DNA from: a virus
Direction: 5' to 3' (one strand)
IMG/VR virus record: IMGVR_UViG_3300032053_000193
Coordinates: 1-39,648 of that record
Length of the DNA: 39,648 nucleotides
Shown here in pieces: positions 2,562-7,023 of this stretch (position 1 is its first letter; every line of letters starts with the position of its first letter). The position numbers and the translations under genes are program-made. Under the pieces are notes generated by a model. It ran no database searches, had not been told where the DNA came from, and was given only the letters and a program-made list of their open reading frames with translations.

Positions 2562-5075
2562 ATGGTTAACATTCCCGGAATTTTGGGCTATAATGTTCCG
2601 GGCGCGTTTTCGATAGTGCGCTCAAGACAGGGTGCCGTCACATTGCCCGGTGGTCCAGTAGTCCTTTGTATTATGGGACAGGGGCAACGCGAGTTGGCTT
2701 TAGTTGAGTCAGCCGAAGGCGGTGGTAAAGATGGTTCTCCTGCACAGTTTGATCCCCGGTTAGATCCGGATGGTCGTTATTATTTTCTGCCACGTGCACC
2801 AATCGTACCTGGCTCAGTAAGGTTGTATCTTAATCCAAAGTTTGACGGTACTGATGTACCTATGATTGAGGTTACAGATACTAGCGATGGAACTGCATGG
2901 GCTACAGAGTTTGGTATTCACAGAGTTACTCAAGTAGATCAAATCAATGGTGACACAGTTGTTCCACCAACTGAATTTGATACCTTGAGAGCATTCGGCA
3001 ACACTGCTGGCACGACAGCTCTTGTTCAGGGATTCCGTCCTGGCAAGTCAGGTCGTTTTGCTAGAATTCAAGTTTGGGCTGAGAAAACAGGCACACCACT
3101 AGACGATGTAACTGTTAAGTTATTCCGCGCTACTGGTGCAGATCTTCCAACTGGTGTTGGTACAGAATTAGCAACGACCACTCTGGTTAATGCTGATGTT
3201 CCTGGTTCTGGTAACGCTACTTGGGTTAACGTTGATTTCGATCTTACAGGTGTAGATCCTATTGCTGAACTCACAGAGCAAGATCTTTACTTTGTAAGAT
3301 TTGAACGCAGTAGTGGTACACCTGATCCTGCTAATTATTTTATGCTTGGTGTTAATGAGAGTAGTTCGTACGGTCGTACGACTGGCGAGTGTGTTTATGT
3401 TGGCGATGTTACTTTGTGGCCAATTGTTGCTGCAGTTGCTGGCGACGACATTCTTTTCCGTAGTTTCTTAAGCTATGGCGATTTTGGCACATCATATGAC
3501 CTTTATGGTGTTGATGGCGCTGGTCTTATTGATGAAGACAAGTTTGGTATTGATGGCTATGAAGGTACAAGTGCCGGATCTGGTTTCTTTGATACTCCTG
3601 CTGGCCGTCGGTATCGTGTAGTTTCAGTTCCTGGCGAGACAGAACGTGAACATTATTATATTGACTATGCTACAGGTCAGATTGTTCTTGATCATGCATT
3701 GGAGCGTGGCGATAAGTTGATTGCTATCTTCTTACCAGAGCTTGATCTAAATGAATTCGAGTTGTTCTTTGATCTCGAAGATCTTTATAAGAAGCATGGT
3801 TATCCAAGTGTTGATAATACGATTTCACAAGCCGCTTATATGGCTACACTAAACAATGCTCCAGTAATTGGTGCAATCCACGCTGGCACTAGTAAGGATG
3901 AAAACACAGGTAGATTCCTTACAGATATCTTCTGGGCAGACGCATTTGCTGCATTGGCGAAGGAAGATATTGACTTCGTTGTTCCAATCGCTAAGCGAGA
4001 TGTTGTTGGCGAAGTGATCATGACAAGATTTGGTCCTGACTTCTATGACATGACTGGTGGTCCTACTGATCCAGGTCGCTGGCTACAAGAAGTCCCAGGT
4101 GGTGGTGATGAGCCAGGTATCAATATTTATCCTTTGGCTTGTGATGAGGCTGGTGATCCAGTACGTCTTGAGGTTTACAAGAATGGTGTACTCCTAACGA
4201 GAGGTATTGATTATACAGTTACATTTACATGTCAAGGTGCTACAGAACCTACAATGATTACTTTTACCAATGCGTTGGTAGATGGTGATCATGTGGTTGC
4301 TAATTATCGTCCTGACATTGATCTAGTAGCAGCTGTACAGACAGTGGCTCTACAACATGTTGAATTCATGTCCTCAGTACGTCAGCGCAGAGAGAGAATT
4401 CTGTTTGCTGGCGCATATGCTGGTTATGGATTCAATGAAGTTCTTGATCCACAATACGGTGTTGCTAAGGTTTTCGGCAAGTCGTTCCGTTGTGCTTACT
4501 TCTTCCCTGAGAGGATTCGTACAGTTATTGCTGGCGAGACAGCTTATCTTGATGGTCAGTTCCTCGCTGCTTGCGGCGCTGGTTATCTTGCTGGTACTTC
4601 TTATCTACCAACACCTCTTACTCGTAAGAATCTTGTTGGGTTTGATATTGAGAAGGATCACAAGTATACAATCGATCAGCTCAATCTTTTGGGAGATGGT
4701 GGATTATGCACAATTGAGCCACTAAGTTCAGGTGGAAGAGTCATTCATGGCTTGACCACAGTACAGAACGGTAATCCTGTTGAGGAAGAAATTTCAATTG
4801 TCCGCATCAGAGATTATGTGGCTAAAGTTAGTCGTCAGATTCTTGAAGAACGTTATATTGGTGGTGTTATTGATGACCAGACCGTTGCCAACATTAAGAT
4901 GACAACGCAAGGAATTCTTGAATCACTTACCGCTCAACGTATTATTACACAGTATGCTAATGTTACGGCAAAGGTTGATTCAGTTGAACCACGTCAAGTT
5001 AATGTGGGCTTCGACGTTGCCCCTGTGTTCCCATTGAACTGGATTAAGATCGAGTTCTCAATCGGAGTTCTATAA
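2562..5075 (+). CDS. Tail sheath protein with extra inserted domains
   Basis: This is the contractile tail sheath subunit, which polymerises around the tube and contracts to drive it into the host. The N-terminus (MVNIPGILGYNVPGAFSIV) and the C-terminal ~190 residues are typical of sheath proteins. In the C-terminal part a helix with IRDYVAKVSRQILEE is followed by GVIDDQTV and a last strand with PLNWIKIEFSI. At 837 aa it is much longer than the T4 sheath (about 660 aa). Residues ~142-292 form an extra beta-sandwich resembling carbohydrate-binding or 'choice-of-anchor' domains (ALVQGFRPGKSGRFARIQVW). Residues ~520-587 carry a hairpin module of the 'NGVLL-RG-DYTV' type. AGGAGG at 2551-2556 gives a strong ribosome site. 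The tube gene follows after 16 bases. Confidence 0.93.
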   Translation: MVNIPGILGYNVPGAFSIVRSRQGAVTLPGGPVVLCIMGQGQRELALVESAEGGGKDGSPAQFDPRLDPDGRYYFLPRAPIVPGSVRLYLNPKFDGTDVPMIEVTDTSDGTAWATEFGIHRVTQVDQINGDTVVPPTEFDTLRAFGNTAGTTALVQGFRPGKSGRFARIQVWAEKTGTPLDDVTVKLFRATGADLPTGVGTELATTTLVNADVPGSGNATWVNVDFDLTGVDPIAELTEQDLYFVRFERSSGTPDPANYFMLGVNESSSYGRTTGECVYVGDVTLWPIVAAVAGDDILFRSFLSYGDFGTSYDLYGVDGAGLIDEDKFGIDGYEGTSAGSGFFDTPAGRRYRVVSVPGETEREHYYIDYATGQIVLDHALERGDKLIAIFLPELDLNEFELFFDLEDLYKKHGYPSVDNTISQAAYMATLNNAPVIGAIHAGTSKDENTGRFLTDIFWADAFAALAKEDIDFVVPIAKRDVVGEVIMTRFGPDFYDMTGGPTDPGRWLQEVPGGGDEPGINIYPLACDEAGDPVRLEVYKNGVLLTRGIDYTVTFTCQGATEPTMITFTNALVDGDHVVANYRPDIDLVAAVQTVALQHVEFMSSVRQRRERILFAGAYAGYGFNEVLDPQYGVAKVFGKSFRCAYFFPERIRTVIAGETAYLDGQFLAACGAGYLAGTSYLPTPLTRKNLVGFDIEKDHKYTIDQLNLLGDGGLCTIEPLSSGGRVIHGLTTVQNGNPVEEEISIVRIRDYVAKVSRQILEERYIGGVIDDQTVANIKMTTQGILESLTAQRIITQYANVTAKVDSVEPRQVNVGFDVAPVFPLNWIKIEFSIGVL

Positions 5076-5091: not shown

Positions 5092-5766
5092 ATGGCAGTT
5101 ACTTCTTTCGGACGTAGAGAGGAAACAGGACAACAGGGCGAGACGCCCAGTGGTATTACATCACCACTGCACGACAAGAAGCTCCAGGTTGGCCTTTCCA
5201 CTCAGATTATTATTGAGGCGCAGGACGTCAACGGACAGTGGCGCGCCATTGGTGCCATTCAAAATTTGACACCAACAGAGTCACGTCCTCTCCAGAGAAT
5301 CGGCGAAGTTGGCACAGACGCTGTAATTCAGATTACACCGACCAGCTTCACAACCGTGACTTTGGAAGTGACACGCATTGTATTTGATTATCAGAGACTA
5401 CCTGCTGCATTCCAGCGTGGCTTCCGTCACGTTCATGCACAGAGAATCCCGTTTGACCTTCAGGTCCGGGATTACAATCCTTACTGGGAAATTAGTACAA
5501 ATCCAGGTCAGTCAACCAATTTCGTTCTTACGACTCGTTATGTCAATTGTTGGCTGGCTCGGTATTCGGCACCCTACACTTCTGATAACTACATTATCAC
5601 AGAGACTGCGACGATTGAAGCAGAGCATGTGTATGATGAGCCAATTGGTGGCCAGATTGCTATTGGTGGTGACGATTTTGTGGAGCGTTCACATAATGAT
5701 TCTCGTCGTGCTAATACGATGGCAGAAGCATTCATTACTCCACCGAATCCTGGGTACGTTTCATAA
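5092..5766 (+). CDS. Tail tube protein
   Basis: This 224-aa protein directly follows the sheath, as tube genes do in contractile phages. It should form the hexameric rings of the inner tube. Residues ~30-205 are strand-rich with few helices, as expected for the tube beta-barrel fold: LSTQIIIEAQDVNGQWRAIG, then FTTVTLEVTRIVF, and late strands NYIITETATIEAEHVYDEP. The N-terminal ~25 residues are polar and probably flexible. AGGAGG stands seven bases before the ATG. Two larger frames inside it on either strand are shadows. A terminator follows 24 bases after the stop, so transcripts of the sheath/tube unit probably end here, as suits very abundant proteins. Confidence 0.85.
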   Translation: MAVTSFGRREETGQQGETPSGITSPLHDKKLQVGLSTQIIIEAQDVNGQWRAIGAIQNLTPTESRPLQRIGEVGTDAVIQITPTSFTTVTLEVTRIVFDYQRLPAAFQRGFRHVHAQRIPFDLQVRDYNPYWEISTNPGQSTNFVLTTRYVNCWLARYSAPYTSDNYIITETATIEAEHVYDEPIGGQIAIGGDDFVERSHNDSRRANTMAEAFITPPNPGYVS

Positions 5767-5789
5767 CTAAATTTTAGAGGTGACAGGTA

Positions 5790-5807
5790 GTGCGGGATGC
5801 GAGATAA
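5790..5807 (+). other. Possible 5-codon leader ORF inside a terminator stem
   Basis: A GAGGTG Shine-Dalgarno-like site at 5777-5782 stands seven bases before GTG at 5790, which opens a five-codon frame (VRDAR) ending at TAA 5805-5807. The frame covers the whole left arm and part of the loop of the terminator hairpin at 5790-5819. A ribosome on it would block hairpin formation. This could be chance, because the frame is very short. Confidence 0.2.
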
Positions 5808-5833
5808 AACATCCCGCACACCTTCCCTTTTTT
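5790..5833 (+). terminator. Intrinsic terminator after the tail tube gene
   Basis: GTGCGGGATG (5790-5799) pairs perfectly with CATCCCGCAC (5810-5819), giving a 10-bp GC-rich stem around a 10-base loop. A pyrimidine-rich tail follows, with six T at 5828-5833. The T run starts eight bases after the stem, so termination may be partial. It separates the abundant sheath/tube unit from the chaperone and tape-measure genes. Confidence 0.75.
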
Positions 5834-5856
5834 CTAAACACTGAAAGTTGGGACTT

Positions 5857-5926: not shown

Positions 5927-6664
5927 ATGGCAAGTCAAGACAACACACCAAACAGAAAACCTATTCGTGTTGATGATCCTACGTTACCCACAGATGAAAC
6001 AATGGAGGTGTATCCTCCTCCTGTGGCTCCCATTATCAGACCTACCACAAGAAACTCTGTTCATATTCCTTCTCCAGCAGCGCGCATGGTCCCGCCAGAG
6101 CAAAAGCATGCTTCATCATTGCAGCGTATGAAGGAACTTAATAATCAAACTCGCAAAGAAATGGAAGATGCTATGATGCAAAAAGCTAATCAAGTTCAAT
6201 ATCAGGCTCCCGCTGTAGAAATTCCTCAAGAACCTATTTTGGAAGAACTTGAGATCCAACCTATCGAACAACTACAAGCAGATTTGAGTCAGCTCATTTC
6301 TACTGGTAGTATTTCCGAAGAAAAGGTTGTTGGAGGATTTAAGTTTAGATTGCGCACCCTAAATGCTAGAGAGAACAATGAAGTACTAGCGAGCATCATG
6401 AGTGCTAAAGACGACTTTGAGAAGTTAGGTCGTATTCGTATTGCTGTTCTATCTCGCGCTATTGAAACTGTAAATGGCGTACCACTAGAGCACGTTCCAG
6501 GTGTTGATGGTAAACTTCCCATTATGCAGCGCAAAGAGAGTCTGATTGGTAATTTGCAATTGAGTCTAGTTGTTGAATTGTTTAACGTTTATACCAATAT
6601 GCTAGAAAGATCAGAGCAAGTATTTAAGACAGCTGCAGACAATGAGGAGACACTAAAAAAATAA
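5927..6664 (+). CDS. Tail assembly chaperone, upstream (G-like) frame
   Basis: This 245-aa protein lies between the tube and tape-measure genes, where dsDNA phages encode the chaperones that coat the tape measure during tail assembly. Residues 1-~110 are Pro-rich and charged, probably flexible, with a short helical segment near 62-90. Residues ~135-240 form a helical core starting with GGFKFRLRTLNARENNEVL, which fits a chaperone domain. The gene ends in CTA AAA AAA TAA, so an A AAA AAA slippery heptamer lies in phase immediately before the stop. The next frame (-1) continues without a stop. The expected products are this protein and a rarer 365-residue fusion with the downstream frame, as in lambda G and G-T. 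Confidence 0.8.
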   Translation: MASQDNTPNRKPIRVDDPTLPTDETMEVYPPPVAPIIRPTTRNSVHIPSPAARMVPPEQKHASSLQRMKELNNQTRKEMEDAMMQKANQVQYQAPAVEIPQEPILEELEIQPIEQLQADLSQLISTGSISEEKVVGGFKFRLRTLNARENNEVLASIMSAKDDFEKLGRIRIAVLSRAIETVNGVPLEHVPGVDGKLPIMQRKESLIGNLQLSLVVELFNVYTNMLERSEQVFKTAADNEETLKK

Positions 6665-6690
6665 TCATGGAGCCGTTCGTTCGGCTCCGT
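6644..6690 (+). promoter_or_regulatory. -1 programmed ribosomal frameshift signal
   Basis: Three elements of a bacterial -1 frameshift site line up. GAGGAG (6644-6649) is an internal Shine-Dalgarno-like stimulator, five bases before the slippery heptamer. A AAA AAA (6655-6661) is in the correct X XXY YYZ phase of the upstream frame, whose stop is the very next codon (6662-6664). Seven bases after the heptamer, GGAGCCG (6669-6675) pairs with CGGCTCC (6682-6688) around TTCGTT, and two more pairs, one of them G-U, can extend the stem. After slipping, decoding runs ATA ATC ATG GAG into the downstream frame and ends at 7023. The arrangement closely resembles E. coli dnaX. Confidence 0.85.
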
Positions 6691-7023
6691 TGGAAAATTT
6701 GTAAGGCCCTTGGAAGACCTCTTAACGATCCGATGTTCAAGAATATGTTGCCAGTTCAATGGTTGACATATGCTGCATTGCTTCGTAAGGATGAAGAAGA
6801 ATCGTACGAGAAAAATCGTGACTTGTTAGAGTATCTTGCACGCTTTTGGAATAATGATGCTGTTGACAAGATACAAATAGCTCGTGCGCAAACGAAAGAA
6901 TCATCCGACGATGGATTTAGTAAGATGCTAGAAAAGCAATTTGGAAGAGGTTTGGGAAGTGCAGTCCAGCAAGACTTGACAGTACAACAGCTCGGTGACC
7001 AAATTAAGCGAGCTGCCCAGTAA
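6667..7023 (+). CDS. Tail assembly chaperone, downstream (T-like) frame
   Basis: These 118 codons lie in the -1 frame relative to the preceding gene and overlap its end through two codons (ATA ATC) before ATG 6667. They are probably translated mainly as the C-terminal extension of a frameshift fusion (365 aa in total). Independent initiation at ATG 6667 looks poor: the nearest Shine-Dalgarno-like site is 17 bases away and the ATG lies at the base of the frameshift hairpin. The protein is helical and charged, with an aromatic segment (LPVQWLTYAALL) near residues 28-40 and a DLLEYLARFWN helix near 53. In lambda the equivalent T domain binds the tail tube protein, while the G part coats the tape measure. 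Confidence 0.75.
   Translation: MEPFVRLRWKICKALGRPLNDPMFKNMLPVQWLTYAALLRKDEEESYEKNRDLLEYLARFWNNDAVDKIQIARAQTKESSDDGFSKMLEKQFGRGLGSAVQQDLTVQQLGDQIKRAAQ

Follow-up and report, generated by a model that had tools for sequence, protein, structure and literature searches.

Gene organization of the tail region

The window, as the term is used here, is the whole 39,648-nucleotide stretch of viral DNA that was analysed (IMG/VR virus record IMGVR_UViG_3300032053_000193, positions 1 to 39,648). It carries a tail gene cluster that encodes, in order, the sheath, the probable tail tube, a tail assembly chaperone in two reading frames and the tape measure protein (Table 1). The order tube, chaperone, T domain, tape measure recurs among the relatives described below; an ORF of about 200–225 amino acids occupies the tube position in nearly all of those with enough upstream sequence, and a long ORF occupies the tape measure position in those with enough downstream sequence.

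Table 1. Features of the tail chaperone locus in the window
Feature	Position	Strand	Basis
Tail sheath gene	2562..5075	+	phrog_2839/phrog_279 tail sheath, E 4e-20 / 5e-17; Pfam Phage_sheath_1C
Probable tail tube gene	5092..5766	+	Follows the sheath gene; phage G gp179 by tblastn, E 5e-8
Tail assembly chaperone ORF, zero frame, 245 aa (G-like product)	5927..6664	+	Family profiles and model matches
SD-like GAGGAG, role doubtful	6644..6649	+	5 nt between motif and heptamer; position not conserved
Slippery heptamer A AAA AAA	6655..6661	+	Sequence; in-phase heptamer in 55/55 protein-found relatives
-1 frame continuation (T-like domain), 120 residues past the slip, stop included	6661..7023	+	Sequence; homology to the C-terminal region of phage G gp182
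Zero-frame stop TAA, in the spacer	6662..6664	+	Immediate in 48/55 relatives, one codon later in 7/55
ATG opening the downstream ORF, paired at the hairpin base	6667..6669	+	ORF list; at that codon in no relative (60 junctions)
Hairpin: stem GGAGCCG 6669-6675 / CGGCTCC 6682-6688, loop TTCGTT	6669..6688	+	Folding; conservation of the six core pairs across 57 aligned rows
Tape measure protein gene, 1154 aa	7038..10502	+	ORF list; position that of phage G gp183 'tapemeasure'

Taken alone, the window's chaperone has no match in Pfam, PHROGs or an annotated phage collection. Pfam also gave weak matches to Exonuclease VII and DUF3046; both identities were dropped, as the scores fall short of the cut-off and the matches are not repeated among the other family members. 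Profiles of the relatives and protein models point to a tail assembly chaperone: 10 of 45 first-ORF members match phrog_2992 and 8 of 45 match phrog_2792, both 'tail assembly chaperone'. Modelled with AlphaFold (mean pLDDT 79.8), the window's first ORF matches phage G gp181 (E 3.6e-8), and its first-ranked match in the PDB is the HK97 tail assembly chaperone 2ob9, a weak one (E 0.036, prob 0.98). For the second domain the model (pLDDT 83.2) has phage G gp182 as its first-ranked Foldseek match (E 1.4e-3), and the second ORF also matches the C-terminal part of gp182 by tblastn (E 6e-4).

The gap between the tube and chaperone genes (5785–5840) contains a strong, terminator-like hairpin, GTGCGGGATG/CATCCCGCAC, with a T-rich tail (-22.4 kcal/mol, z -5.3). 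Many relatives have an inverted repeat in the same gap, often T-tailed, and an intrinsic terminator has been reported after the tube gene of Listeria phage CKA15 (PMC12282133).

Slip site and hairpin in the window

The chaperone ORF ends in CTA AAA AAA TAA, and this places the heptamer A AAA AAA in X XXY YYZ phase with the zero-frame stop directly 3' of it. The -1 frame, which past the slip begins I-I-M-E-P-F, is open for 120 codons (6661–7020) and stops at 7021–7023, giving a fusion of 245 + 120 = 365 residues. The heptamer by itself carries little weight, since 55 in-phase X XXY YYZ heptamers (Y = A or T) lie within the window's ORFs; it is the only one of them that abuts the stop of its own ORF.

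The stem downstream of the heptamer has 7 bp with a 7-nt spacer, and can be extended to 9 bp by the pairs A6667-U6690 and U6668.G6689, in which case the spacer is 5 nt; a GC-rich hairpin of 7–9 bp seven bases past the slip, as originally predicted, is thus borne out. The energy of this stem, -15.4 kcal/mol, is matched by none of 10,867 24-nt coding stretches of the window, and a stem of at least 7 bp at comparable spacing occurs at 1.3% of in-phase positions there. Folded over 41 nt from the stop codon the element has z = -3.8 (0/200 shuffles), a value that weakens in longer stretches (-1.2 over 59 nt and 0.0 over 101 nt). An Rfam search with the hairpin element gave no match, and an Rfam-known element was rejected as its identity. 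There is no T-run 3' of the stem on the plus strand, and the only terminator-like match is on the minus strand. The original observation is confirmed base for base: the phase of the heptamer, the adjoining stop, the hairpin, the -1 frame to 7023 and the 365-residue fusion all agree with the sequence.

A family of related junctions

Scans of viral sequences with single proteins gave one relative, L002, which was reached through its sheath (69% sheath identity), and a search of genome contigs gave none. Relatives were gathered by DNA pattern and then by two protein-profile scans; they come from environmental contigs, some of 200–330 kb. The total is 60 distinct junctions, of which 55 came from the protein searches, where neither the heptamer nor the choice of codons was constrained, and the key statistics were redone on these 55 only because the DNA pattern itself fixes heptamer and stem.

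An in-phase heptamer is present in all 55 protein-found junctions, 41 of the type A AAA AAN and 14 of the type U UUA AAA, the latter one codon upstream. Loss of the heptamer phase in close relatives had been named beforehand as a test of the original prediction, and the phase is kept throughout. The zero-frame stop follows immediately in 48 of the 55 and one codon later in 7, and the core stem pairs at the same spacing number six in 48 junctions, five in four and four in three. L002 reads A AAA AAC TGA and Bacillus phage G reads A AAA AAC TAG; in the window and in both of these the distance from the slip to the same Trp is exactly 11 codons, with no indels. Across the 60 junctions A AAA AAG is found in only three relatives, seven A's are present in 29 and only six in 17 others.

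The U UUA AAA class comprises L118, L119, L124, L132, L137, L139, L145, L149, L151, L155, L160, L166, L172 and L178. Its stop and stem are unmoved, and about two changes of heptamer type are seen on our tree, a quick one with many weak forks on which event counts are approximate. The three junctions with four of the six core pairs (L145, L172 and L178) all belong to this class; they have lost the two lower stem pairs and have TGAGCC or CGAGCC with GGCTGC.

Selection on the stem

In a 57-row alignment 96.5% of the stem's cells are paired in register, versus 28–54% when the stem is slid by 1–3 columns, and neither the pairing percentage nor the covariation score was reached by any of 500 shuffles. 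The stem is encoded in the codons of E-P and R/W-L-R, and the choice of codon there departs strongly from that elsewhere in these genes: the stem Glu is GAG in 53 of 54 (33% background), the Arg is AGG or CGG in 47 of 51 (21%) and the Leu is CTC in 47 of 58 (6%). Codon 3 past the slip, where the stem begins, may encode E, K, A, Q or S, yet it ends in G in 55 of 60. On the same tree, and with the same approximation, third-position changes number 1–7 inside the stem versus 14–23 just outside it. So little varies in the stem that few double changes are available as evidence of covariation; the fifth stem pair is C-G in most members, U-G in three and U-A in L133, L164 and L175, so that the C-G to U-A double change is seen in three separate clades.

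The hairpin, as judged from these alignments, is selected at the RNA level, apart from the protein that it encodes. Since heptamer, stop and stem are conserved, the wobble bases resist the codon bias and double changes preserve pairing, the frameshift site and its hairpin are real and selected, and the shift of the ribosome itself is predicted.

The SD-like motif and the downstream ATG

Stimulatory SD motifs for -1 shifting lie 9–14 nt (PMC5009743) or, by another account, 8–11 nt (PMC6321510) upstream, and an SD adjoining the E site has been reported to reduce dnaX-stimulated -1 shifting (PMC6321510). At 5 nt GAGGAG fits only the short edge of a broad 6–17 nt rule (PMC4066793). SD-like motifs are found in 26 of 60 relatives against a background of 14%, at scattered positions. 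Of the three dnaX-type stimulators originally proposed, then, an A-run heptamer and the stem stand but the SD, too close by either range and not conserved, does not.

An ATG just 3' of the stop is found in the window, L002, L074, L091 and L133. In the sister L002 it is one codon earlier than in the window and overlaps the stop (TGATG), and phage G has no ATG past its stop. Because its position is peculiar to the window, ATG 6667 would appear to be lineage noise, at most a local extra. It does pair at the base of the hairpin, as was claimed for it, but this is no feature of the system: only 7 of the 55 protein-found relatives have any start codon between the slip and the second domain (to the Trp), and 48 have none. 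In most relatives the next in-frame start codons are inside or after the conserved RLRW motif, which would be lost. Most members having no start codon at the junction, frameshifting is the one way to the second domain that their sequences show, and the earlier suggestion that it may be the sole route is upheld in the sense of a main route.

Proposed mechanism and alternatives

A programmed -1 ribosomal frameshift of the λ G/GT type very probably joins the two tail-chaperone frames. We infer ribosomal slippage, its rate and the roles of both products as follows. Most ribosomes would terminate at TAA 6662–6664 and release the 245-aa tail assembly chaperone. The hairpin stem, 5–7 nt past the heptamer, would slow a minority of ribosomes, which could slip back one base on A AAA AAA as the tandem tRNA-Lys re-pairs AAA to AAA in both sites. 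They would then read to 7023 and make, as the minor form, the 365-aa fusion with its second helical domain. In the 14 U UUA AAA members the slip would occur one codon sooner, into the same frame. By analogy with λ, the role of the short form may be to coat the tape measure protein, and that of the fused domain to recruit tail tube subunits; neither form need be present in the virion.

The second ORF might instead be translated alone from ATG 6667, by termination and reinitiation past the TAA, into a free 118-aa protein, the A-run and hairpin being incidental or the hairpin controlling reinitiation. The ATG 2 nt past the stop and the TGATG overlap of L002 are compatible with this, but the position of the ATG differs even between these two sisters, GAGGAG at 17 nt before the ATG is far for initiation, and the heptamer is universal among relatives that mostly lack a start codon and would lose the RLRW motif by starting further on. 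Reinitiation in place of the frameshift is very unlikely on these grounds, and separate initiation as the sole source of the second domain was rejected because most relatives have no start codon for it. A mixed arrangement, with frameshift fusion throughout the family and in addition a free second domain made by reinitiation in the window and L002, is unlikely; the five junctions with an ATG just past the stop speak for it, but an ATG in TAATG context arises easily by chance, and this one has no SD at normal distance and is partly paired in the hairpin.

Slippage during transcription of the A-run, giving mRNAs of altered A number that are translated normally into the second frame, would suit the 29 junctions with seven A's. 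Such slippage is most improbable, since many sites have runs of six or fewer: the 14 U UUA AAA relatives have no run longer than six and 17 others have only six A's, against the runs of 9 A or T described in a review (PMC5009743). Nor would it need the X XXY YYZ phase and an RNA stem to be kept. An indel from sequencing or assembly, or decay of the gene, might be suspected as the cause of the split frame in view of the homopolymer A-run and the metagenomic source, but this has a practically negligible chance of being correct; the comparison refutes it, since 55 independent junctions and cultured phage G are all split at one and the same codon, with heptamers that are not all A-runs. The programmed ribosomal frameshift accordingly remains our preferred reading.

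The TmpB-type second domain of Herelleviridae

The second domain is homologous to Herelleviridae TmpB, which occupies the equivalent position (E 8e-7, 91.6% and columns 1–48 for the profile match), and a TmpB-type second domain occurs in 580 phage records. In seven Herelleviridae checked (SPO1-, Twort-, K- and A511-like) the ORF before TmpB and TmpB itself stand in a +1 relation, not in the -1 relation of the window, and a TTT CGN close to where the first ORF ends is common to all seven (L190, which is Twort, at 1700–1800, and L191 to L196). An unusual +1 shift has been reported in the tail chaperone of the SPO1-like phage Moonbeam (PMC4299906). Only the second domain is homologous; hhalign did not find homology between the first ORF and the Herelleviridae chaperone (8.8%).

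The seven records annotate the first ORF and TmpB as separate genes. The TmpB-type extension is labelled 'RNA polymerase beta subunit' in phrog_1316, NC_007021 ORF081, OQ434248, OP263967 and NC_029026, most likely a propagated misannotation.

Comparison with known systems

What began as a guess from a single sequence now rests on comparison: across dozens of diverged phages the slip site, the stop and the stem are under selection. This implies that a two-gene annotation, with the second gene begun at a chance ATG, is wrong for these genomes. A broader reading has, in our estimate, about an even chance of holding: that environmental phages with contractile tails, a little-studied family distantly related to phage G and found in several cases on contigs longer than 200 kb, carry one of the most tightly conserved of phage frameshift elements, with the stem in the E-P-x3-R/W-L-R codons at a fixed distance, an exchangeable heptamer, and stop, stem and fusion point fixed. 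On this reading the homologous second domain of Herelleviridae would be reached by a +1 shift instead, and the fusion would have been conserved while the direction of recoding changed. The two heptamer types, the stems weakened by G.U pairs and the -1 and +1 forms of a homologous fusion make a natural series in which one can study what sets the chaperone ratio and how the type of a recoding site can switch while its product is kept.

Among named phages the closest relative is Bacillus phage G, with gp181/gp182 (JN638751). It resembles the window in gene order (sheath, tube, chaperone, tape measure), in its homologous second domain, in its heptamer directly before the stop (A AAA AAC, TAG) and in the 11 codons from slip to Trp. 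It differs in its hairpin, which is weak and has just 5 bp (-5.9 kcal/mol, z -0.7), and in its second domain, which carries an additional tail and is longer, with 252 residues past the slip. Because of their frameshift signature gp181/gp182 have been annotated as joined by a λ G/GT-type -1 frameshift, and they were not detected by mass spectrometry (PMC8570332).

In λ, G and GT are a short chaperone and a minor long form made by -1 frameshift (PMC5009743). As in λ gpG/gpGT and other long-tailed phages, the window has, immediately upstream of its tape measure gene, a chaperone ORF that is extended in the -1 frame, the first ORF being identified as a tail assembly chaperone by its relatives' profiles and by structure (the HK97 match is weak), and the second lying in the -1 frame and reached through an in-phase heptamer at the end of the first. 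The λ heptamer is G GGA AAG and no conserved stem is known there (see also PMC5009743); the window's proteins have no detectable sequence similarity to λ G or T.

E. coli dnaX resembles the window in its A-run heptamer followed 5–7 nt on by a GC-rich stem, and the window's stable stem, conserved in the family, lies within the 5–8 nt downstream of the heptamer expected of such a cassette. The dnaX site consists of A AAA AAG, an SD about 10 nt upstream and an 11-bp stem after a 5-nt spacer (see also PMC8861025, PMC5009743); the window has A AAA AAA, and its SD-like motif is at 5 nt and unconserved. The dnaX shift leads to a shorter product (PMC8861025, PMC5009743), whereas in the window the zero frame stops at once and the -1 frame, open for 120 codons, leads to a longer one. 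The label 'dnaX-like' is therefore an analogy only and misleading as a name, the switch being of the G/GT type. The original prediction is partly supported, right in substance and overstated on the SD and the dnaX label; its central claim, a conserved -1 site joining two tail chaperone frames, is sustained by the 55 of 55 heptamers, the chaperone profiles, the stem and the stop in the spacer. It is well supported that this is a switch of a known kind, the phage tail-chaperone frameshift, of which the window carries a new member and which about 55 environmental relatives retain intact.
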